Below are positions 10,303-49,029 of a stretch of 64,000 nucleotides of DNA, piece after piece. Location: positions 2,045,001 to 2,109,000 of the forward strand of contig NZ_CP032570.1 of the NCBI RefSeq assembly GCF_003626915.1. The letters run 5' to 3'. Origin of the DNA: Tsuneonella amylolytica (GTDB lineage Bacteria > Pseudomonadota > Alphaproteobacteria > Sphingomonadales > Sphingomonadaceae). Numbering within the stretch: the first letter of the stretch is position 1; each line of letters opens with the position of its first letter. A program made the position numbers and the translations under genes. The notes below the pieces were generated by a model. It did no database searches. It was not told the DNA's origin and worked only from the letters and a program-made list of their open reading frames with translations.

Positions 10303-10378
10303 GCCGCTTTAGCTCAGTTGGTAGAGCACATCATTCGTAATGATGGGGTCACAGGTTCGAGTCCTGTAAGCGGCACCA
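10303..10378 (+). tRNA. tRNA-Thr (anticodon CGT), island integration site
   Basis: A 76-nt cloverleaf. The acceptor GCCGCTT pairs with AAGCGGC, the anticodon loop is TTCGTAA and CCA is encoded. The gene is intact. Its last 45 bases, from the anticodon loop to CCA, are repeated exactly at 24714-24758, so this is the attachment site of the genomic island that follows. Confidence 0.97.
10334..10378 (+). repeat. attL: 45-bp direct repeat inside tRNA-Thr
   Basis: Identical to 24714-24758, with mismatches immediately on both sides. It runs from the anticodon loop to the CCA end, the usual crossover segment for tRNA-targeting tyrosine integrases. Confidence 0.95.
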
Positions 10379-10823: not shown

Positions 10824-10897
10824 TGTAGCGTGTAGCGTGTAGCGCGTCGCACTACATTACCATTGATATGCGTGGTGTAGCGTGATACACTACACGT
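10824..10897 (+). promoter_or_regulatory. Autoregulated leaderless promoter with two operators
   Basis: Two palindromes of the form TGTAG-N9-CTACA lie at 10838-10856 and 10876-10894, agreeing also in most spacer bases. Three tandem copies of TGTAGCG (10824-10844) lead into the first. A sigma70-type promoter, TTGATA (10863-10868), 17 bp, TACACT (10886-10891), has its -10 inside the second palindrome. Transcription would start at about the A of the ATG at 10898, giving a leaderless mRNA. The obvious ligand is the HTH domain at the N-terminus of the encoded protein. The sequences are seen; binding is inferred. Confidence 0.75.
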
Positions 10898-13800
10898 ATG
10901 AAAAACGAACCTATCCATCCGGGCGAATATGTCCGAACAAACATCATTCCCGTTGGCACCAACGTCACCACAGCGGCCAAGCTGATCGATGTCAGCCGTC
11001 CAACGCTCTCAAACTTTCTCAACGGGAAAGCGGATCTCTCAACCGAGATGGCGGCTCGATTAGAACGAGCTTTCGGCGTGTCTGCCCGCACTTTACTTGA
11101 TGTCCAAAGCGCGTGGGACGCTGCCAAAACCACAGCCCGCTCGGCGGCGATTACCAAGTCTTATGTGCCGCCCTTTTTGCAGATTAAGGGTGCCGACATC
11201 ACCCGGTGGGCGACGACGGGCGTCACCCCTCGCCAACGGCTGGCTGTGTTCATCAGAACGTTGGTGAACTCGACTGGGGTCGGCCTGACCAAGGTCGAGT
11301 TCCCCGGCAATGACGATAGCGAGCGCTCTGGTTGGGATGGAGAGGTTACGGCAACGCAGGCGACACCTTGGGTTCCATCGGGCCATTCCGGTTGGGAGTT
11401 TGGCGTTACCGAAGACATCAAAGGCAAGGCCGATGGCGATTTCACCAAAAGCGTGAAAGCCATCCCGCCGAAACAGCGGAGCGAGATGACGTTCGTGTTC
11501 GTCACGCCACGGCCTTGGGCGGGGAAGGAAGCGTGGGTCAAAGCCCACAAGGCGAAAGGTCTCTGGAAAGATGTTCGCGTTTACGATTCGAGCAACCTTG
11601 AAGAGTGGCTGGAGCAGTCGATCGCGGGCCAAACGTGGTTCGCCCATGAGACGCGTCAAGACGCGAGCGGCGCGATCTCGCTGGACGCTGCCAATCTACT
11701 CTGGGGGGCAGACTGCGACCCACCACTTAATCCTCTTCTGTTTGCCGACGCGGTAAATAGCTTCCGGTCCACGCTGGTCCGCATGATGACCGCAGAGCCG
11801 TTTCAGCCCGTCGTCATTTCCGCGGATTCGAAAGATGAAGCTGTTGCCTTCCTGAGCGCCGCGTTTGCCACCAGCGATCCAGAACTAGGGGCATACCGCG
11901 ACCGCATCATCGTGTTCCGCGAGCCAGGCACACTTAGCAAACTGGCCAGCCCGCTCGCCAACTTCATCCCAGTTATCCAATCCCGCGACGTTGAGAAGGA
12001 GTTCGCACCGTTTCGCGCATCTATGCCGTCGATCATCATCTATCCGCGCAATGCAACCACGTCGGACCCCGACATCACGCTGGAAACGCTCAGCTATGAA
12101 TCGTTCAACAAGGCGCTGGAAGCGATGGGTCTGGAGAAAGATCGCATCGACAAGCTCAGTCGCGAGTCTGGGCGATCGCCTACTGTCCTTCGTCGTCGAC
12201 TTTCAAAATTGCCAGCCGTTCGAACGCCTGACTGGGCATCCGATGATCAAACGGCCTCTAATCTGATTCCGTTTGTGCTTGCGGGCGCTTGGAAGGCGAC
12301 GAACGAGACCGACCGCGCCATGCTGGAAATCATCTCTGGCGACGTGCCGTTCGACGAACTTGAGCGGCGTCTCAATGCCCTTTTGCCACTGGACAGCGCT
12401 CCCGTCTGGTCGGCGGGCCAATACCGGGGCGTCGTCTCCAAAATCGACGCCCTTTTCGCAATCCAAGGCCGTTTTACCGAAGCGGATTTGCGACGCTTTT
12501 TTGATGTGGCGGCACTCGTTCTTTCGGAAGATGACCCAGCCCTCGATCTACCGGAAGAGCAGCAATGGGCTGCGGGCATTTACGGTAAAACCCGCGAGAT
12601 TTCCGGGGCACTCCGTGAAGGCTTGGCGGAGACGCTCGTTCTGCTTGCCGTGTATGGCCCGGCGTTATTCAAAGCCCGATTGAGCTTCGATACGGCCGCG
12701 CACGCGAGCAAATTGGTCAGGGATCTTCTCACGCCGCTTACGCGGAAGGCGCTGGAGTCTCAGGTCGATAATTTGCCCCTTTATTCCGAGGCAGCACCGG
12801 AAACATTCCTCTCGTTGATTGAAGCCGATCTGGCGACGCCTGAGCCGGTGACGCTGGAACTGATGAGGCCAATCGGCGACATTCTCTTCGGCCGATCGCA
12901 CCGCACAGGTCTTCTTTGGGCATTGGAGAATCTGGCATGGACCGACGAATTCTTCATGCGGACGGTACTGGTGCTTGGCCGACTGGCGGAGCGCGTGATT
13001 GACGACAACCTGGTCAACAAGCCTAGCGGTAGTCTCTCCTCGATTTTTCGGTCGTGGATGCCCCAGACGGGGGCCAAGATGGAGCATCGCAAAGCTGCGC
13101 TCGCCAAGCTGGTGGTGAAGCATCCAGCGGTGGCGTGGCCCATCTGTATCGAGCAATTCTCGGCGCATTCTCGCATCGGTCACTACAGCCACAAGCCGCG
13201 TTGGCGGCCGGATGGTCACGGCCTCGGCAATCCGATTACACGAGGTGAAGATAACGAGTTCGCCTTGTTCGCATTCGAGCTTGCTCTCGCGTGGCCCGCG
13301 CATACGCGCGAGACTATAGGTGATCTGATTGGTTGCCTCGAAGCGATCGACGGCGAGCTCAGAAGCAAGGTCTGGGATGTGGCTGAACGCTGGGTTGCCA
13401 CGGCAAGCGAAGCCGACAAGGCCGATCTCCGCGAAAAAATCCGCACATCGGCTTTGACCAACCGGGTGATGAAGCGCCGGAAGTCCGCCGGCGCAACGGC
13501 CGACGATCGCGCGCGCAAGCTGTACGACGATTTGCAACCGACCGACCCGGTCCTCCGTCACGAATGGCTGTTTCGCCAAACGTGGGTCGATGAATCGTCT
13601 GAGGAGCTTTCAGACGAGGATTTCGATTACACCAAGCGCGAGGCTCGTATCGGGAAGCTGAGGACAGCCGCCGTAGAGGAAGTGTTCTCGTATGGGGGAA
13701 TTGAAGCCGTGCTCCAGCTCGCTGAACGGGGTCAGGCCAGCCACAATGTAGGCTGGTTTTTGGCGAAGGTGATCGATGATGAGGACAAGCTCGCATCAAC

Positions 13801-14956
13801 ATTGACGGAGCTGGCTGCTAGCCAAAAATTGTCCGGCCCACGAGCCTCTCTTTTGTCAGGCGCGCTGGCTTCGTCCGTTCAGAACAGCGCAGATCGAGTT
13901 CTGCGTCAGGTCGTCGATCTACTGCCTAGGGATCAAGTCGGAGAGTTTTTGACGTTATCTCCGTTTGATCGCGCGACGTGGAAGCTGGTGGATGAGTCCG
14001 GCGCGGCGATTGCCGATGCGTATTGGAACACCGTCATCCCGAATTGGAGCCGTGATGTCGAAGATCTCAAGATCGCTGTACCGCGTCTGATGGCGGTTGG
14101 TCGCCCGCGCGCGGCATTTCTCTTGGCCCATTTTGATCTCAAGGATTTGCCCGCTCGGCTTGTCTATGACCTGCTCCTCGCCATGACCAAATCACCTGAG
14201 CCATCCGGAACCTATATGCTGCAGCAGCATCACCTTCGTGACGCGTTCGAAGTGCTGAACAAAAGCGCCCAAATGTCCACCGAAGAGATGGCAGGACTTG
14301 AGTTCGCGTACATCGACATCTTCGATCATGGCGATGGTAAACCGAGCAACCTTTCGCGCGCGATCTCGCTGCACCCTGAGATGCTCGTGCAAGCGATTGC
14401 ATTCGCATTCAAACGGGATGATGATGGCGTGGACCCGTCCGAACTGCTGCTCGACAATGAGGAGCTGCGGTCCAATCGCGCTACAGCCAGCTACAAGCTG
14501 TTGCAGGCGATCGAGTTGGTTCCAACGAAGCCTGACGGAGTTTTGGAGGCATCGACACTGATCGCATGGGTAGAACAAGCGCGAGCCTCCATTGCAAGCC
14601 TCGCTCGCCAAGACATCGGCGATCAAATGATCGGCAAGGTCTTCTCGACCGCTCCAGCCGCCGAAGACGGCGTGTGGCCGACACTCGCTGTGCGCGACGC
14701 TCTAGAGCAAGTTGCCAACGAACATATCGAACGCGGACTCCATGTGGCGCTCCGCAACGCGCGTGGCGTCCACTGGCGTGGCGAGGGCGGCGCTCAGGAA
14801 CGTGAGCTGGCCGCAAAATACCGAGGGTGGGCTGACGCGATGGAATATACCCATCCGCGCGTCGCGGCGATCTTACGGGGCGTTGAGAAGTCCTACCTGA
14901 GCGAAGCGGAGTGGGAGGACAACGATGCGAAGATCGCTCGCCGGATGCGATACTGA
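10898..14956 (+). CDS. HigA-type HTH fused to nuclease-like domain and long helical region
   Basis: 1352 residues. Residues 1-70 form an XRE/HigA-family HTH (HPGEYVR, TTAAKLIDVSRPTLSNFLNG, LSTEMAARLERAFG). Residues about 100-255 look like a restriction-endonuclease-fold domain, with GWDGEV at 145-150, WEF at 166-168, DIKGKA at 173-178, FVFVTPRPW at 199-207 and a closing LEEWLEQ block. At about 303-325 there is a segment shaped like a P-loop strand-helix (PVVISADSKDEAVAFL) but without GxxxxGK[ST], so ATP binding looks lost. The remaining 1000 residues are helical without recognised motifs. The plan resembles STAND-type antiviral proteins (nuclease, NTPase, repeats), but with a repressor in front and a degenerate NTPase. 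No separate toxin gene adjoins. It is transcribed from its own operator-controlled promoter. Confidence 0.7.
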   Translation: MKNEPIHPGEYVRTNIIPVGTNVTTAAKLIDVSRPTLSNFLNGKADLSTEMAARLERAFGVSARTLLDVQSAWDAAKTTARSAAITKSYVPPFLQIKGADITRWATTGVTPRQRLAVFIRTLVNSTGVGLTKVEFPGNDDSERSGWDGEVTATQATPWVPSGHSGWEFGVTEDIKGKADGDFTKSVKAIPPKQRSEMTFVFVTPRPWAGKEAWVKAHKAKGLWKDVRVYDSSNLEEWLEQSIAGQTWFAHETRQDASGAISLDAANLLWGADCDPPLNPLLFADAVNSFRSTLVRMMTAEPFQPVVISADSKDEAVAFLSAAFATSDPELGAYRDRIIVFREPGTLSKLASPLANFIPVIQSRDVEKEFAPFRASMPSIIIYPRNATTSDPDITLETLSYESFNKALEAMGLEKDRIDKLSRESGRSPTVLRRRLSKLPAVRTPDWASDDQTASNLIPFVLAGAWKATNETDRAMLEIISGDVPFDELERRLNALLPLDSAPVWSAGQYRGVVSKIDALFAIQGRFTEADLRRFFDVAALVLSEDDPALDLPEEQQWAAGIYGKTREISGALREGLAETLVLLAVYGPALFKARLSFDTAAHASKLVRDLLTPLTRKALESQVDNLPLYSEAAPETFLSLIEADLATPEPVTLELMRPIGDILFGRSHRTGLLWALENLAWTDEFFMRTVLVLGRLAERVIDDNLVNKPSGSLSSIFRSWMPQTGAKMEHRKAALAKLVVKHPAVAWPICIEQFSAHSRIGHYSHKPRWRPDGHGLGNPITRGEDNEFALFAFELALAWPAHTRETIGDLIGCLEAIDGELRSKVWDVAERWVATASEADKADLREKIRTSALTNRVMKRRKSAGATADDRARKLYDDLQPTDPVLRHEWLFRQTWVDESSEELSDEDFDYTKREARIGKLRTAAVEEVFSYGGIEAVLQLAERGQASHNVGWFLAKVIDDEDKLASTLTELAASQKLSGPRASLLSGALASSVQNSADRVLRQVVDLLPRDQVGEFLTLSPFDRATWKLVDESGAAIADAYWNTVIPNWSRDVEDLKIAVPRLMAVGRPRAAFLLAHFDLKDLPARLVYDLLLAMTKSPEPSGTYMLQQHHLRDAFEVLNKSAQMSTEEMAGLEFAYIDIFDHGDGKPSNLSRAISLHPEMLVQAIAFAFKRDDDGVDPSELLLDNEELRSNRATASYKLLQAIELVPTKPDGVLEASTLIAWVEQARASIASLARQDIGDQMIGKVFSTAPAAEDGVWPTLAVRDALEQVANEHIERGLHVALRNARGVHWRGEGGAQERELAAKYRGWADAMEYTHPRVAAILRGVEKSYLSEAEWEDNDAKIARRMRY

Positions 14957-15059: not shown

Positions 15060-16997
15060 TCAGACTTCTGACAAGCCGCAGTGTCTCAGAAAGTCGAAAA
15101 TAAGGTCGTAGAACTCCCCGCGCCTAGTCCCGTCTGTCTTCGAACCCTCTGGCACGAACACTACCATACCCTGCCGTGCACGGGTGAGCAAAACGCGGTA
15201 AGAGTTTGCTATGTAAGTTTTACGATCGACGTCGTTGACCGCCTGCCACTGCGTTCCTCTAAACTGGAAGCTCTCCCAACCGTCGTCGTTTCGGCGGAAA
15301 TTTGCGTCCCAGCAAACACAAGTCCAGTCGAGCTCCAGGCCCTGCACGTCAAACTCGGTCGCGGCATCTTCCAGGGCATCGGATGACCGTACGTCATCCG
15401 AGGGTGCAAGAAACCATTTTGCTGGTTCGATCTTGGCCTTCGTGAAGATGCCATGCGGCTTCAACCGAGCGGCGTTAGAGGAAGCTAGCAGGCCAATGCG
15501 CTCGTTGCCGCGGGCTTTGCTTCGCAGCCAGGCGCGAGCCTTTTCGATGTCGCGCGTGAGCATCAAAGGAAAGTCGATGAGGGTCTCGCCCAACTCCCTC
15601 GCCGCCTCGGCATTCCCCTCGATCACTGCTCCCACGAAATCTGATAGTCGCTCGGCACGGAAGGACCGGAGAGAGGTGGCGAGGTGCAGAGCTGGCGCCT
15701 GAACTTCGTTCCTTAAGACGAGCTGGCGATCGAGGGTCGGGGGCACGTACGCGAGCCAGTGAGGAAAGGAACGGTCTAGAGCTCTGAGCCATTCACTGAT
15801 CCCCGCTTCGCCCGTGTTGATCTCCTGGCCACCGCCGACGAGACACACGATTGCGCACCAGCCGTCATGTCGATCCATCACGCTCAGCAGGAACTCCGGT
15901 TCGGACATCGAAAAGCCAAGTTGGCCCTTCTTCTGCTGCATGAATTTCGAAGTCTGAGCGACGTCCCAGGCCCGCTGAGCCTCATCGAAGATCGCCACCC
16001 TTTCTACGGGCGCCGCGTCTGAGGTTAGAGCGTCATCGCGAAAGTGATGAATGTTCTGGATGAAGGCCGCGGCTCGACGGTCTTCTTGCACCTTGGAAGT
16101 CTGACGACCAGCCGCTCGCGCTAGGGAGACGGCATCGATGGCCAGCGCTTCTCGTAGCACTTCGACCAGAGGCCCATTGCCCGACAAGAAAACCGCATGC
16201 TCGTCGCTGTGAGCCCGCTGCCGTGCTGTGGCGAGGTTTAGACCAGCGAGCGTCTTTCCAGAGCCTGGAACGCCGGTGATGAAGCAGATGATTTTCTGAC
16301 CCGAGCGTTTTGCCTCTTCAATGGCTTGCGCGACGTAATCGGCGGTTTGCGTGAGATTCTCTGCCCCGGCTTCCGAACGGGAAATCTCCTCGACATCGTG
16401 CCCTCGATAGAGGGTTTGAGCAGCCTCGACGATTGTAGGCGTGGGTCGATACCGACCCGCGGCCCACTCATGGGGATCGAGGTCATCCCCGCCCCAAACA
16501 CGGCAGATAAAATTGATCGCTGGCGCTAGGCCTCTGGCGTTCACTCTTAATGGCCGAGCGAGGCTGCCCTCATCCCATCTCAGTTCGTTTTGCTCGGTCG
16601 CATCGGCATGAGTAGCCACGAGGATTGGGACGATGGTCGCGCCGTGGCTTGTTTCGTGAAAGTGTTTGAGGTCCAGACCGTAGCCATAAACTTGGTCGAG
16701 GCTCGATCGGTCAAAGGTGCGTGCGCCGACCTTGTATTCGATGACGAAAACGAGACCTCCCAGGATGACAATAAGGTCTGCTCGCCTCCCCATCCTTGGG
16801 ATGAGAAACTCCAGAAAGAAATGTGCTGGCGGAAGGTCTTCGGCGAGGCGCCGGAGGTGCTCGATTTGAAACTCCCAAGCCGCCCGCTGTGTCGGTTCCA
16901 GGGAAAAAGGTAAGCCAGCCGCCAACTGTCCAAGCAGTTCCGCGTCAGAAAGATGCGACAGGGCGCGGGAGCCGATCGACACATAAGATCGCTTCAT
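15060..16997 (-). CDS. PD-(D/E)XK nuclease fused to DUF2075 SF1-like helicase
   Basis: 645 residues. The N-terminal domain has a full PD-(D/E)XK signature: E63, D74 (RRADLIVI) and E87-Y-K89 (FVIEYKVG). The ATPase part has Walker A GVPGSGKT at 242-249, Walker B VAIFDEAQ at 334-341, and a motif-VI-like YRVLLTRARQG near the C-terminus, as in DUF2075 helicase-like proteins. Such nuclease-helicase fusions act on DNA or RNA and are common in defence islands. It faces the large HTH-nuclease gene tail to tail (stops 104 bp apart) and has its own promoter region (16998-17278) shared with the divergent PDZ gene. Confidence 0.8.
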   Translation of the reverse strand: MKRSYVSIGSRALSHLSDAELLGQLAAGLPFSLEPTQRAAWEFQIEHLRRLAEDLPPAHFFLEFLIPRMGRRADLIVILGGLVFVIEYKVGARTFDRSSLDQVYGYGLDLKHFHETSHGATIVPILVATHADATEQNELRWDEGSLARPLRVNARGLAPAINFICRVWGGDDLDPHEWAAGRYRPTPTIVEAAQTLYRGHDVEEISRSEAGAENLTQTADYVAQAIEEAKRSGQKIICFITGVPGSGKTLAGLNLATARQRAHSDEHAVFLSGNGPLVEVLREALAIDAVSLARAAGRQTSKVQEDRRAAAFIQNIHHFRDDALTSDAAPVERVAIFDEAQRAWDVAQTSKFMQQKKGQLGFSMSEPEFLLSVMDRHDGWCAIVCLVGGGQEINTGEAGISEWLRALDRSFPHWLAYVPPTLDRQLVLRNEVQAPALHLATSLRSFRAERLSDFVGAVIEGNAEAARELGETLIDFPLMLTRDIEKARAWLRSKARGNERIGLLASSNAARLKPHGIFTKAKIEPAKWFLAPSDDVRSSDALEDAATEFDVQGLELDWTCVCWDANFRRNDDGWESFQFRGTQWQAVNDVDRKTYIANSYRVLLTRARQGMVVFVPEGSKTDGTRRGEFYDLIFDFLRHCGLSEV

Positions 16998-18207: not shown

Positions 18208-18909
18208 ATGCGATCAATTTTTGCAGTTGCTTTAGCAGCCGTCTGCTTTGCTGGCCCGGTCAGCGCGCAGACGGTTGTGGGGCAGGCTGGTGTCGTCGAC
18301 GGCGACACCCTTCGCGTAGGCGAAACGACAATCCGACTTTTTGGGATCGACGCTCCTGAAGGCCGACAGACTTGCAGCCGGGAGGGCAGGGAGTGGCCCT
18401 GCGGTGAGGCTGCAACCGGCAAACTACGTTCCATGATAGAGGGCAAAACGGTCGTTTGCCGCGGTCGTGGCTTTGATCAATTTGGGCGAACGGTCGCTGT
18501 CTGTGAAGCTGGCGGGGTCGAGCTCAATCGCGCGCTCATTGCCTATGGATGGGCGACCGCCTTTCAAGCCTACAGCCAAGATTATCTCGCGGACGAGACG
18601 AGGGCAAAGACTGCTCGGCTGGGTATCTGGGATTCGACGTTTCTCCTGCCCGCAGATTACCGGCGGACTCGAGCTGAATTAGTGGAACAAATGCATGGCT
18701 ATCGTGCGCCTCCGGCGAGAGATTCGACGAACGCCGCTGCGCCGGCCGTGATGGGGCGATGTGCGATTAAGGGAAATCGCAACCGCCGCGGCCAGTGGAT
18801 CTACCATCTGCCAGGAATGCCGTATTACGAGGCTACGCGACCTGAGGAGATATTCTGTACAGAGGCCGAAGCGCAAGCAGCCGGATATCGACGAGCAATC
18901 GTTCGCTAG
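18208..18909 (+). CDS. Secreted thermonuclease (SNase) with C-terminal sunset-like domain
   Basis: 233 residues with a signal peptide (1-20, PVSA-QT). The staphylococcal-nuclease fold spans about 25-150, with D31 and D33 in VVDGDTL, R43, D48, E51 (GIDAPEG) and R94 (QFGRTVAVC), so the calcium-binding and catalytic set is complete. Residues about 183-230 form a small domain with the CAIKGNRN...YHLPGMPYYEAT pattern of 'sunset' domains found behind such nucleases. It would cut DNA or RNA in the periplasm or outside the cell. Confidence 0.88.
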   Translation: MRSIFAVALAAVCFAGPVSAQTVVGQAGVVDGDTLRVGETTIRLFGIDAPEGRQTCSREGREWPCGEAATGKLRSMIEGKTVVCRGRGFDQFGRTVAVCEAGGVELNRALIAYGWATAFQAYSQDYLADETRAKTARLGIWDSTFLLPADYRRTRAELVEQMHGYRAPPARDSTNAAAPAVMGRCAIKGNRNRRGQWIYHLPGMPYYEATRPEEIFCTEAEAQAAGYRRAIVR

Positions 18910-20821: not shown

Positions 20822-22285
20822 ATGAATAACGGAAATACATCGCCTCCGGGCGAGGCCGAGCGCTATTGGACAGCGTTCGGTTTTAAGAATGTGCGTCAAG
20901 ATAGCGATGGAAAGCTATGGGGGGATATTCCTGATGGCACCATCGCTTTCACAAGTGTCGGTGCTGACTCAGGTCTTTCGCTTAGACGTGCGCTGCAGGC
21001 AATTGGCACAGTCCCCGATATTCTTGCCAAATTCGACGGTGATCATCGTCTCTACCTCTACGCTCTCGATCCGGAATTACCGGCCAACGCCATCAGATCG
21101 CATTTCAAAGCGGCAGGCGAGGTTCGCTTTTCCGGCGATCGGATCGCGCTTCCGCAAGGCGACGATCTTCAGCTTGGCGAATGGCCTCAAAACGCTGGAG
21201 ATCTGGCGGAATTCGACACCCTCGATGGCGTAAGCGAAGTTGAAAGTTCCCCCGGTGACCTGCCCCAGCAGGTTGTCGGGGGGACCCTTCTCGACGAGTT
21301 CAGCATTCTCGATGCTGACTTGGGCGACGAGGCCGTCAAGAGCCGTCCCTTGCTCGGTTTGGTAGTGCTTTCCGGCCAGGCGACCGTCATCTACGCGCCG
21401 CCGAATTCCGGTAAGACGCTCCTGACCCTGCACCTGGTCGCGGAGGCCGTCGAGGCCGGGCGGGTGGTACCTCAGCGGTGTTACTATGTAAACGCGGACG
21501 ACAGCTTGGAGGGCGTGCATGTGAAACGCTCCATCCTTGCCGAGGTCGGTGTCCATACGCTTGTGCCGGGCATGCAAGGCTTCGACGTTCGGAAACTATC
21601 AGCGTCCATCACATCGCTCATAGCTGAAGATGATTGCGGCGACGTGGTCATCATCGTCGACACGCTAAAGAAATTTGTCGATCTGATGGACAAGAAGGGG
21701 TCGGCTGCCTTCGGTGACGTTGTGCGACGCTTCGTGCTTAAAGGCGGGACGTTTCTAGCCTTGGCGCACACGCGGAAGAACGAGGGGCCGGACGGTCAGC
21801 TGGTATACGGCGGAACCTCTGACGTGGTCGAAGATTTCGACGCGGCCTGCCTCCTTGTGCCCCTTGAAGATCGTACCGACGACGGGCTCAAACTCGTGCA
21901 ATTTCAATTCCGCAAGCGCCGTGGCCGGAACTTCGAGGAGGCCTACGGTTACGACGACGACCCTAGCCTCAACTACGAGGCCCGCTACGCGTCCGTGCGG
22001 CTGGTCACGACTGACGAGTATGAAGAGCAGCAAGCGCGGCAGCGCTACCGCTCCGACATCGACCTGATCGAAGGCATTTCCGCAGAGATCGCTGGCGGGT
22101 GCGCCAAAAAGATGGCCCTGGTCCGGAAAGTTGGTGCGGAGTTGGGCGCTAGCCGCAGCCAGGTACTTGCCGTGCTCGATCGGTACACTGGCGACGACCC
22201 TTACCACCATCGATGGTTCTACTCCGTGGAGGCGCGGGGGGCGAAGGTTTATCGCCTTCACGTTAAGCAGGAGGACGGCGGCTAG
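20822..22285 (+). CDS. RepA-like AAA ATPase/helicase of the island
   Basis: 487 residues. Residues 1-150 form an acidic N-terminal part without recognised motifs. The ATPase core has Walker A APPNSGKT at 192-199 and Walker B VVIIVDTLKKF at about 276-286. A C-terminal segment (about 415-487) is winged-helix-like (KKMALVRKVGAELGASRSQVLAVLDRY). RecA-fold ATPases of this size next to an integrase are usually replicative helicases (RepA type) of phages, plasmids or integrative elements. No primase is visible nearby. A small palindrome GCCCAT-acg-ATGGGC (20784-20798) precedes the gene and could be an operator. Confidence 0.75.
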   Translation: MNNGNTSPPGEAERYWTAFGFKNVRQDSDGKLWGDIPDGTIAFTSVGADSGLSLRRALQAIGTVPDILAKFDGDHRLYLYALDPELPANAIRSHFKAAGEVRFSGDRIALPQGDDLQLGEWPQNAGDLAEFDTLDGVSEVESSPGDLPQQVVGGTLLDEFSILDADLGDEAVKSRPLLGLVVLSGQATVIYAPPNSGKTLLTLHLVAEAVEAGRVVPQRCYYVNADDSLEGVHVKRSILAEVGVHTLVPGMQGFDVRKLSASITSLIAEDDCGDVVIIVDTLKKFVDLMDKKGSAAFGDVVRRFVLKGGTFLALAHTRKNEGPDGQLVYGGTSDVVEDFDAACLLVPLEDRTDDGLKLVQFQFRKRRGRNFEEAYGYDDDPSLNYEARYASVRLVTTDEYEEQQARQRYRSDIDLIEGISAEIAGGCAKKMALVRKVGAELGASRSQVLAVLDRYTGDDPYHHRWFYSVEARGAKVYRLHVKQEDGG

Positions 22286-22500
22286 GTCGCCAGGATGCCA
22301 GGTTCCCAGCTCGCCGGCGGGGTTGCGTCCCTCTGGCGGGCCGGGCTTCCGGCGGGCCGGTGTGCAGCATGTGCCCGACCCACTCCAACGCTTGTCAAAA
22401 CCGCTTTCTCTTAAGCTCACGGCCGCTCGGCCATCCCCGCCGTCCCTGGACCCCGCCCGCGGCGACGCGGCGCTCCGCGGTTCGGCATTTATCGCCCTTT

Positions 22501-22518
22501 CCGAAGGAAATTCATATG
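22501..22518 (+). promoter_or_regulatory. Ribosome binding module of the integrase
   Basis: CCGAAGGAAATTCATATG repeats the 18-base pattern at 19202 and 20252 and decides the integrase start at 22516. The longer frame, open from 22360, lacks such a site. Confidence 0.7.
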
Positions 22519-23667
22519 CCACGAGTTCATCTCGACCACTCATTTTGCCTTACCGCCCGGTGTCTCCCTGGCCGTAAGCGCACTGACTACTATGATCGCA
22601 CGGTCACGGGCTTTGTGCTCGAAGTCCACGCGAGCGGCACCTCCAGCTACGCGTTCCGCTACCAGGACGCGTATGGGAAACTGCGGCAGCGTCGCATTGC
22701 CGGATTCGGCGATGTGACGTTCGATCAAGCCAAGAAACGTGCCCAGCGCTGGCGGGCGGAGGTGACACTTGGCGGCGATCCAGCCGGCCAGAAAGCCGAA
22801 AAAAAGGCGATCCCGAACTACGCTACGCTCGCCGATCAACATCTGGAGTACGTGCGAACCTACTCACGCAATCCCGGCAATACCGAGTCTGTCCTTCGCG
22901 TCCACGTTCGGCCGAAGTGGGGTAAGAAGCGCCTCGACGAGATTCATACGCCGGACATCGCGAAGTGGCTCGGAGACCTTCGTGCACGTGGCCTTGCTCC
23001 GGCTACGGTCGAGAAAATCCGCGTGATCTTCAATCGTTCGTTCGAGCTTGCTCTTCGATGGCAAACGCCGGGAGTGAAGGCGAACCCCGTCCGGGGCATC
23101 CAGCGCCCGAAGGTGGCCAACGCGCGTGATCGCTTTCTCACTGCCGAGGAAGCCGCACGCCTGTTGAAGGCAACTCAGGCTTCGCTCAATCCGCAACTGT
23201 ACAACATCGTTCGGCTTCTGCTGCTGACCGGTGCGCGGAAACGCGAGTTGCTTGATGCTCGGTGGGTGGACGTAGATCTTGATCGGCGGGCCTGGTTCAT
23301 TCCGACGTCGAAGACAGGCAAGTCGCGTTATGTGCCGCTCAGCACGACTGCCGTCGAGGTGATCGAGCAATTGCCGCGCTTCGACAACTGCCCGTGGTTA
23401 CTTCCCAACCCGTCGAGCAAGCGACCCTACACGGACATTAAGCATCCGTGGGAAACCGCCCGAGCGGCAGCAGGGCTGCACGGACTCCACATTCATGACC
23501 TCCGCCACTCGGCAGCGAGCTTCATGATCAATGCGGGAATCGATTTGTTCGCTGTGGGCCGCATTCTGGGTCACGCCGATCATCAGTCGACCATGCGCTA
23601 CTCGCACCTAGCTAACGACACACTTCTTGCAGCCGTGGAAGCTGGCGCTGCTAAAATGGCAATCTAA
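22516..23667 (+). CDS. Tyrosine-type site-specific integrase
   Basis: 383 residues. The N-terminal arm-binding domain (DUF4102-like) covers about 1-95, the core-binding SAM-like domain about 100-195 and the catalytic domain 205-383. The active-site residues are R241 (TGARKREL), K in the TSKTGKSR hairpin (266-269), H327-x-x-R330 (HDLRHSA), H353 (GHADHQ) and the nucleophile Y362 (MRYSHL). It should insert and excise the island at the 45-bp tRNA-Thr repeat, whose right copy lies 1.05 kb downstream. It is preceded by the RepA-like ATPase gene. Confidence 0.95.
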   Translation: MPRVHLDHSFCLTARCLPGRKRTDYYDRTVTGFVLEVHASGTSSYAFRYQDAYGKLRQRRIAGFGDVTFDQAKKRAQRWRAEVTLGGDPAGQKAEKKAIPNYATLADQHLEYVRTYSRNPGNTESVLRVHVRPKWGKKRLDEIHTPDIAKWLGDLRARGLAPATVEKIRVIFNRSFELALRWQTPGVKANPVRGIQRPKVANARDRFLTAEEAARLLKATQASLNPQLYNIVRLLLLTGARKRELLDARWVDVDLDRRAWFIPTSKTGKSRYVPLSTTAVEVIEQLPRFDNCPWLLPNPSSKRPYTDIKHPWETARAAAGLHGLHIHDLRHSAASFMINAGIDLFAVGRILGHADHQSTMRYSHLANDTLLAAVEAGAAKMAI

Positions 23668-24713: not shown

Positions 24714-24758
24714 TTCGTAATGATGGGGTCACAGGTTCGAGTCCTGTAAGCGGCACCA
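24714..24758 (+). repeat. attR: displaced tRNA-Thr 3' half
   Basis: An exact copy of 10334-10378, with no 5' half of a tRNA before it. It is therefore not a second tRNA gene but the right attachment site of the island. Confidence 0.95.
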
Positions 24759-47434: not shown

Positions 47435-49029
47435 CGCGCTGCGCCCCCGCGTCCCCCGGTGCCCGCGCCCGGCACGAACAGAGTGCGTGCGAAGGCGCGC
47501 AGATCGGGCGTCGTCCAAAGCACGATCGCGAAGGCGGCCGCCGCGAGGATGGCACCGAGCGCCGCCGCTGCGAGTTCGGGCAGGCCGGCCGACCGCAGCG
47601 CGTATCCGCCGCCGCCCACCACGATAAGGCTGATCAAGAACGGTCCCCCGACGTCTCCCGCAAGCCAGCGCGAACCGGTTCCGGGCAGCAGTGAGCGGTG
47701 GGTAATCCACGTTCCGAAAAATAGATAGAGCGTGTTGAGGATCGCCCACGCCATCGCCCCACCGAGGATGCCGAACCGCGTGGCCAGCACGATCAGCACC
47801 GGCACGAACACGGCGAGCAGGATCACGTTGATCAGCATCGGCAACCGCGATTGCCCGAATGCCAGCTGCAGGGCGTAGGGAAAGTGCATCGCGCAGTTGA
47901 ACGCGGTGCCGACCATCAGCAGGACGACGACCCAGAAAACACTGGCCGCGAGCGCCGCATCGCCCGTCCAGATCGCGAAGATCGGGCCCGAGAAGACCGC
48001 CACGAAGAACGCGGCGGGAAAGACGATGCCCATGAGCAGCCGGGTGCCGTGGCGATAGAGCGCCTCGATCTCGGCAGTCGCGTCCGCCGCGTGGAGGGCG
48101 GAGATGCGCGGGTAGATTACGTTGAAGGCCGGCGCGGTGAGGACGTAGAGGCTGCGCGCCGCGATCCAGGCGAGCGTGTAGCGCCCGACATCGGCGAGCG
48201 GGGCGATCTTGCTCAGTACGATCTTGTCGCTCTGTACGAAGATCGCGCCGAGGATGGCGGTGACCGCAAGTCCGGCCGAAAAGCGCCAGATCCGTTTGAG
48301 GCCACCAAAATCGAAGCGCGTTCGGCCTGCGTCCGGCTTCGCGCCCGGCACCGCCAGTATCCGCCATACCGCGCTGCGGACCGCGAGCACGTTGAGCGCG
48401 GCGATGGCCGCCTGCCAGGCGAAGAACGCCTCGATCGTCGGCGACACGAACGCGAGGACGGCGAGCACCCCGACCTGGGCCAGCGTCACCATCGCGATCT
48501 CGATCCCGCTCGCCAGCCCCAGCCGGCGCGCTCCGATCAGCGCGCCCAGATACAGCCCCAACGGGAAGCGCAACGCGATGGTGAGACCCATCAGCGCGAC
48601 CACCGTCGCCAGCCGCGACGGGTCGATGGTGGAATCGAGCCACGACACCGCGAGCCAGGGCGACAGCAGCCACATGGCCCCGCCGATCAGGACCGCGACG
48701 ATCCAGTACCCCGCCGCGAGCGTGTGGAGCAGGTTCCGCACCGCGATCCGCTCGTCGTCCCGGGAAGCGCGCGCGACCTCCCGGTTGATCGATTGCGACA
48801 GCCCCAGGTCGAGGACGGCAAACATCGCCTGCAGCGCGATGTAGAAGCCGATCAGGCCGTAAGCTTCGACACCCAGGAAATGGAGATAGGCCGGGACCGT
48901 CGCGATCGTGACGATGGCGGTCCATGCGGTGCTGGCGACGCCGGCGGCGAGGCTCCACCCCAGCGCCGGCTCACGCGCGCTGGCATCGGCGATCGAACCC
49001 CTGTCCGAACCGTCATTCGAACTGTTCAT
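47431..49029 (-). CDS. Wzx-type polysaccharide flippase
   Basis: 532 residues with about 12-14 transmembrane helices, matching the MOP-superfamily polysaccharide exporters: a conserved [16 protein letters not shown] loop after helix 2 and the [25 protein letters not shown] segment in the second half. It flips lipid-linked repeat units across the inner membrane. Its start overlaps the end of gmd by 17 bp. No Wzy polymerase or Wzz is in this operon. Confidence 0.87.

Follow-up and report, generated by a model that had tools for sequence, protein, structure and literature searches.

A single gene of Tsuneonella amylolytica encodes a giant protein of 1352 amino acids that is probably a stand-alone, self-repressed nuclease defence protein from a family related to PD-lambda-4. 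The gene lies in the 64,000-nucleotide stretch analysed here (the window; assembly GCF_003626915.1, contig NZ_CP032570.1, positions 2,045,001 to 2,109,000 of the forward strand). Several properties could be read directly: the domain order, homology with PD-Lambda-4_A of PADLOC, residues of the catalytic type, an operator linked to a HigA-type domain, the single-gene layout, the location on an island, and defence genes among the neighbours. A preliminary description of the window had already recognized one giant 1352-residue gene, and a single open frame (10898-14956, + strand) bears this out, but the start that it gave, at 10824, lies 74 nucleotides upstream of the true one; the extra stretch is the promoter and operator region.

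The protein consists of a HigA-type helix-turn-helix (HTH) domain, a nuclease-like block, a degenerate P-loop segment, and a long C-terminal region (Table 1). At residues 3-79 the HigA model TIGR02607 scores 62.2 bits (E 3.1e-17), above its cut-off of 47.7, which agrees with the HigA-type repressor domain first placed at residues 1-70, and HTH_3 of Pfam also matches the N terminus. R34 of the HTH is invariant in 75 aligned rows, and P35, S38, N39, N42, and G43 are each kept in at least 90% of them. No Pfam or NCBIfam model matched the remaining ~1270 residues. PADLOC models gave a weak and partial match to PD-Lambda-4_A (E 7.5e-4, residues 632-740) and a second weak match, PD-Lambda-2_B, over the HTH.

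Nuclease-like block and homology with PD-Lambda-4_A

A scan of GTDB genomes yielded 188 stretches confirmed by tblastn as relatives; the best 80 were kept, and the family counts rest on these. A strongly conserved block at residues 88-262 corresponds to the putative restriction-endonuclease-like block that the preliminary description had placed at about 100-255. D147, E167, K177, and D181 were all kept in 79 of 80 aligned rows, which represent the window and 79 loci (L101 left out); the remaining row was gapped. Seven positions (G145, D147, G148, W166, E167, K177, and D181) were invariant among 75 aligned sequences. Among 24 more diverse relatives, the window protein included, D147 was invariant and E167, K177, and D181 were each present in at least 90%. 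The catalytic set suggested earlier was D147, E167, and K175. Its two acidic residues stand (79/80 rows), but K175 is a lysine in just 45 of the 80 rows, and the invariant lysine is K177. The protein thus has the conserved acidic pair and lysine of the PD-(D/E)XK superfamily, with unusual spacing of the lysine.

The block compared well with the N terminus of PD-Lambda-4_A (E 5.7e-8; reversed control, 0.12). Matches of a profile of residues 1-500 to solved structures by hmmsearch were confined to the HTH, with none elsewhere at E up to 10. A solved relative was also sought with a C-terminal profile; the matches were only weak, led by prefoldin at E 0.24 and followed by kinesin light chain and others, and were taken as chance.

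The homology extends far beyond the nuclease-like block. When 24 family members were compared with five PD-Lambda-4_A proteins by hhalign, 961 columns aligned colinearly (E 4.6e-23), query residues 113-1172 matching template residues 16-1118 in order. A local rerun gave E 1.7e-23, compared with 0.34 and 0.35 for reversed profiles, 0.18 for the best of 30 column shuffles, and 0.086 for the best of 46 unrelated large open frames (genes or not). The five single PD-Lambda-4_A proteins matched the family profile at E 4e-13 to 0.0022. Profiles from close relatives only also matched PD-Lambda-4_A, at 3e-11 for residues 260-1352 (76 relatives) and 1.4e-5 for residues 1-500 (75 relatives), as did separate segments of the 24-member profile (residues 480-800, E 8.9e-9; residues 800-1100, E 1.7e-8). 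As judged by profile alignment, this shows a common origin of the window family and the PD-Lambda-4_A core.

In this alignment ISADSKDEAVAF of the window protein faces VGLSGVGKTRLV of PD-Lambda-4_A, and ISADSKDEA falls opposite the G-x-S-G-x-G-K that is invariant in the five PD-Lambda-4_A sequences. The alignment therefore agrees with the earlier proposal of a P-loop-like segment without its Walker lysine, and the window protein would lack the intact P-loop nucleoside triphosphatase (NTPase) of PD-Lambda-4_A. The regions on either side of the NTPase-like segment are anchored by their own alignments; the segment itself is supported only through colinearity. S311 and E314 within it are invariant in 75 rows.

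The PADLOC model PDLC03991 (PD-Lambda-4_A) was matched by 14 of the 24 members at E <=0.01 (best, 3.8e-10) and PDLC03990 by five at E 0.01. Because the single-protein PADLOC match is weak and partial, and because 10 of the 24 members have no PDLC03991 match at E 0.01, the window family is best read from these comparisons as a sister family of PD-Lambda-4_A rather than filed as a member. Other PADLOC matches among the 24 were to the HTH-type models HTH_VI, Control_protein, RmrA, and capH, with single-member matches to mad1 (5.6e-10), PDC-M69A (3.3e-4), and MTase_II (0.0097).

The two families share the order of an N-terminal nuclease-like block, a P-loop position, and a long C-terminal region. 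The five PD-Lambda-4_A sequences all have an intact P-loop (GLSGVGKTR and similar) and a QxK motif, and three complete HTH-free examples are 1273-1281 amino acids long. In contrast, the window family has D147/E167/K177, no Walker lysine, an extra unaligned C terminus, and the HigA domain with its operator. The preliminary description knew of no named system with this exact architecture. That view gives way before the 961 columns of homology and a further HTH fusion: a PD-Lambda-4_A homologue of 1573 amino acids carries an N-terminal Cro/C1-type HTH (L131 5932-10653, the same as L125 538-5256; genome G044).

PD-lambda-4 is credited to Vassallo et al. in a table of PMC10952713, and Vassallo et al. 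2022 (PMC9519451) state that every candidate was verified to lower the plating of the phage with which it had been selected. These two statements place PD-lambda-4 among the 21 validated systems; a search of the main text of PMC9519451 turned up no mention of the name itself.

The layout of the giant protein had also been likened to that of STAND-type proteins. STAND-type defence proteins combine a nuclease, an NTPase, and a long sensor. The likeness to them (Avs and others) is one of general layout. Unlike them, the window family lacks the Walker lysine, and no STAND model of Pfam matched any of the 24 members at E 0.01. Membership in that class is thus not demonstrated.

A conserved operator linked to the HigA domain

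HigA-fused genes of the family are preceded by a palindrome, TGTAnnGTGTAGCGCTACACnnTACA (26-bp form, TGTAnnGTGTAnCGnTACACnnTACA), with a 14-bp core. The 26-bp pattern has 20 specified positions, and its column counts come from 69 sequences that include the window. With up to 4 mismatches in 20, it was found upstream of 69 of 77 members (the window not counted) and in none of 780 control upstream regions. The core was present within 150 bp with up to three mismatches in 69 of 78 members (the window included); upstream of neighbouring genes, 4 of 780 regions had it. With up to two mismatches, the counts were 53/78 and 0/780. Its median position, -58 from the start codon, is a promoter-like distance. 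All six members on viral contigs, which lie outside the consensus set, have the 26-bp form with 0-3 mismatches. Of four more HigA-fused members that were likewise left out of the consensus, L032 and L033 carry it with 0 and 4 mismatches, respectively, and L134 and L175 do not (see below). None of 10 homologues judged by a profile test to lack the HigA domain had the core at up to three mismatches, and all differed from the 26-bp form at nine or more positions. Those 10 include the HTH-free L109 and L135, which fall inside the HigA clade described below.

In the host genome (2.79 Mb), the only fit to the 26-bp pattern at up to three mismatches is the site 42 bp before the giant gene, and a backwards control pattern had no fit in that genome. 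This single-place test is not fully independent because the window is among the 69 consensus sequences. Downstream of the operator are a promoter-like element and a second inverted repeat over its -10 box (Table 1). The start codon lies 6 nucleotides past the -10 box, and the transcript may be leaderless. An operator at the gene's own promoter that tracks the HigA domain is the pattern of an autorepressed gene, with binding predicted from sequence. Self-repression is thus the most strongly supported of the earlier proposals, by way of this conserved, HigA-linked site.

A possible source for this switch was found among the HigA loci of related genomes. One of 23 (L009) has the operator core with a single mismatch 360 bp before the HigA frame, at 1144-1157, and three others (L010, L026, and L031) have it with three mismatches somewhere in ~3.2 kb. 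The resemblance of the sites suggests that the HigA domain and its operator derive from a stand-alone HigA locus, as at L009. Among relatives with other HTHs, inverted repeats were found upstream of single members, and no shared site was established.

The domain and operator could also be what remains of an addiction module, the protein being a greatly enlarged HigA antitoxin for a HigB/RelE toxin whose gene lies elsewhere, with the rest of the chain only modifying that role. An N terminus above the curated HigA cut-off and the cores at L009, L010, L026, and L031 speak for such a descent. However, a search for HigB toxins, which covered the PF05015 family only, had no match in the host genome and was positive in 4 of 14 control genomes. 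No small neighbour (open reading frames [ORFs] of at least 70 amino acids) recurs in the 80 loci, and, unlike in HigBA modules, the HTH fronts a 1352-residue protein. Furthermore, the core persists in relatives with other HTHs or none, which rules out toxin binding by HigA as the function that all have in common. An antitoxin role is very unlikely.

Some restriction enzymes combine DNA-binding and nuclease domains in one chain. By analogy, the HTH might guide the nuclease to palindromes in phages or plasmids, making the protein a sequence-directed restriction factor instead of a self-repressor; having both kinds of domain in one chain would fit. However, the conserved site lies at a promoter-like distance upstream of the protein's own gene in 69 of the 77 members, where cutting would be suicidal, and the nuclease block occurs with other HTHs or with none. 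We consider guided restriction most improbable.

Family spread, island, and defence neighbours

The best 80 relatives span Pseudomonadota, Nitrospira, Planctomycetota, Acidobacteria, Bacillota, Myxococcales, and others, and 75 of them align from query residue 1-16 through residue 1339 or beyond. The closest of those kept is from a Sphingomonas metagenome-assembled genome (63%). In a midpoint-rooted core tree (96 sequences, 1254 columns), 80 HigA-bearing proteins formed one clade (support 0.958) that also included the two HTH-free proteins, and the second clade held proteins with other HTHs or none. Parsimony gave four changes of HTH label on this tree, in which the 'xre' label of L136 and L119, resting on 10-15 bits, is not trusted. 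Pfam HTH_3 was found in 16 of the 24 diverse members and HTH_17 in an Arthrobacter protein.

Of 296 genomes of the order, 67 were matched, mostly to HigA alone. The core was present in seven of the 296, the host's own included; in G017 and G210 it was reduced to short pieces, and in G237 the frame was truncated. The G237 locus (L137 6626-8317) encodes a C-terminal remnant of 563 amino acids that is apparently decayed. The 10 other genomes of the genus lack the core (residues 95-1352), the own genome being the only match among 11.

The giant gene sits on a mobile element, as the preliminary description had proposed in placing it at the left end of a tRNA island. The 3' end of the tRNA-Thr gene (10334-10378) is repeated at 24714-24758 with 45 of 45 bp identical, and a phage-type tyrosine integrase gene lies between the two copies. 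The repeat and the integrase make the giant gene the first large gene inside a 14.4-kb integrated island, with the features of a tRNA-borne element. Congeners have kept the tRNA side of the island, and 11 of 11 genomes (own included) match part of it. The right flank was not found beside the tRNA side in seven loci compared; among the 10 other genomes of the genus, four matched it, in pieces only, and no empty site was seen.

Table 1. Features at the giant gene and along its island (window coordinates; a point marks features without strand)
Feature	Position	Strand	Remarks
Left attachment-like repeat (last 45 bp of the tRNA-Thr(CGT) gene, 10303-10378)	10334..10378	+	tRNA by ARAGORN
Predicted operator TGTAGCGTGTAGCGCGTCGCACTACA	10831..10856	.	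3/20 specified positions off the family pattern
Promoter-like TTGATA-17-TACACT	10863..10891	+	1 found, 0.4 expected in shuffles; weak alone
Second inverted repeat GTGTAGCGT-GAT-ACACTACAC, over the -10 box	10875..10895	.	Arms 89% complementary; shares operator half-site letters
Giant gene (HigA-HTH, nuclease-like block, degenerate P-loop segment, long C-terminal region)	10898..14956	+	188 tblastn-confirmed relatives
HigA-type HTH, residues 3-79	10904..11134	+	TIGR02607 E 3.1e-17; R34, P35, S38, N39, N42, G43 conserved
PD-(D/E)XK-like nuclease block, residues 88-262	11159..11683	+	D147, E167, K177, D181
Segment at the PD-Lambda-4_A P-loop NTPase position, residues 263-480, Walker lysine absent	11684..12337	+	Colinear alignment
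C-terminal region, residues 481-1352, presumed sensor	12338..14953	+	Parts align with PD-Lambda-4_A
SLFN-g3 helicase (PADLOC candidate PDC-S41), convergent with the giant gene	15060..16997	-	E 4.9e-268
Tyrosine integrase of the island	22360..23667	+	Phage_integrase E 1.6e-31; Arm-DNA-bind_3 E 4.9e-11
Right attachment-like repeat, end of the 14.4-kb island	24714..24758	+	45-bp match

To evaluate the genomic context of the family, the five nearest ORFs at 28 loci on long contigs (140 ORFs) were compared, at E 1e-20, with 140 ORFs from the same contigs at least 79 kb away. The near set contained PDC-S39, PDC-S71, OloA, REase_II, PDC-M05A, PDC-M05B, AbiD, and HEC-07, in one ORF each, whereas the control set contained none of these defence names and mad3 four times; numbers are small overall. 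The mad2 and mad3 families were set aside in both sets (the near set has one member of each), and because the PADLOC tables count members per family, two family names could share one ORF. Defence neighbours were thus commoner than in the controls, and the occurrence only in housekeeping contexts that would have spoken against the preliminary description was not seen. Elsewhere, a SIR2-like gene adjoins the relative in G236, AbiE pairs adjoin three rhizobial relatives, and type I restriction genes lie near an Acetobacter relative. On two Rhizobium plasmids (L034 7668-15695; L178/L189), a relative is immediately followed by a PD-Lambda-4_A gene, and the tandem could be a two-effector unit.

A conserved partner gene was also considered. 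Among 1091 neighbouring ORFs (at least 70 amino acids) from the 80 loci, some of them on short contigs, no cluster occurred in more than seven loci and positions were scattered, and a multi-gene system was rejected. The SLFN-g3/PDC-S41 helicase, which the preliminary description had reported as an adjoining gene and which is indeed present, was rejected as a component on the same grounds, since no neighbour recurs in the 80 loci.

These distributions bear on another reading, in which a DNA-binding protein on a nuclease-derived scaffold would serve housekeeping or plasmid maintenance by regulating gene expression or replicon copy number and would have no part in phage defence. Relatives lie on plasmids (in 14 plasmid records a single place covers 80% or more of the query), some relatives are near ParA/ParB genes, and the HTH has a single predicted target in the host, its own gene. 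Against such a role stand the absence of the core from the rest of the genus and its patchy occurrence in the order, the excess of defence neighbours, the homology with PD-Lambda-4_A, and the nuclease-type residues kept in all but one gapped row. A regulator of this kind is unlikely.

Other genes of the island include one at 18208-18909 for a Staphylococcal-nuclease-like protein with a C-terminal sunset domain and one at 20822-22285, beside the integrase, for an AAA_25/RecA-like ATPase of 487 amino acids that may belong to the mobile element. In a congener (G291, contig 1, 1210242-1286524), six perfect repeats of 45-47 bp of the tRNA-Thr end occur within 77 kb. They sit on a different contig from the tRNA match and are perhaps a tandem array of islands.

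A proposed one-protein switch

From the features above we infer that the giant protein binds DNA, represses its gene, acts as a nuclease, senses infection, and protects against phage. In a resting cell, the HigA-type N terminus would bind the palindromic operator at 10831-10856, and probably the repeat at 10875-10895 as well, so that little protein is made. The long C-terminal region would sense infection and thereby free or activate the PD-(D/E)XK-like block (D147/E167/K177), which would cut nucleic acid, while release of the operator would concurrently raise expression. Because the Walker lysine is lost, activation would probably proceed without ATP hydrolysis by the domain at the P-loop position.

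A more specific version, which we put forward tentatively and regard as possible rather than probable, is a one-protein immune circuit in which the effector is its own repressor. In the idle state the C-terminal sensor would allow the HigA domain to occupy the operator. Binding of a phage product to the sensor would cause one conformational change that releases the operator, giving a burst of fresh effector, and switches on the nuclease; ATP would not be hydrolysed, as the NTPase would have decayed to a scaffold. The same tentative picture makes the DNA-binding front an exchangeable module (HigA, Cro/C1-type, HTH_17-type, or none), each lineage having fitted it with an operator of its own.

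Several observations weigh against a self-repressed nuclease of the PD-lambda-4 kind. The textbook E-x-K is absent: the residue two positions after E167 is glycine in 76 of the 80 rows, and the lysine lies ten residues on from the glutamate. The segment at the P-loop position (residues 263-480) is weak by itself (E 0.0077), and residues 1100-1352 fail to align with PD-Lambda-4_A (E 0.047). Apart from the viral contigs, the loci in which the operator was counted are also those that supplied its consensus, and keeping the best 80 of the 188 relatives skews the sample to close ones. Eight of the 77 members have more than four mismatches (L039, L043, L048, L058, L063, L112, L114, and L115), and the HigA-fused L134 and L175, with 10 mismatches each, lack the site; L112, L114, and L115 cluster in one clade with L134. 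The window's own site is imperfect and built of TGTAGCG repeats. The 14-bp core (three mismatches) occurs five times in the whole window compared with 3.35 expected, which is the chance level; three of the five are at the giant-gene promoter, one is at 21521 inside the island, and one is at 48176. In addition, the papers searched brought up no data on expression, binding, or phage for this giant-protein family.

PMC13373217 describes repressors (CapW/BrxR, CapH with CapP, and CapK with CapS) that hold down the expression of an immune gene and give way to a signal, DNA damage for example. Those are separate proteins, whereas the putative repressor of the window family is part of the effector chain. 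Literature searches for HigA-nuclease fusions and for HTH autoregulation with a fused effector gave no title describing this giant-protein family. A fused repressor has a precedent in M.SsoII-type methyltransferases, which carry an autorepressor HTH at the N terminus. What is new here is the effector-fused repressor with its conserved operator and the lost Walker lysine.

Mistimed immune proteins are costly, which gives weight to the question of how bacteria hold them low. A repressor-effector fusion with the same 26-bp operator across several phyla makes the predicted switch testable with one gene and one short site. The finding also links the thinly studied PD-lambda-4 protein to many species, and experiments can start from the invariant residues and the operator given here.

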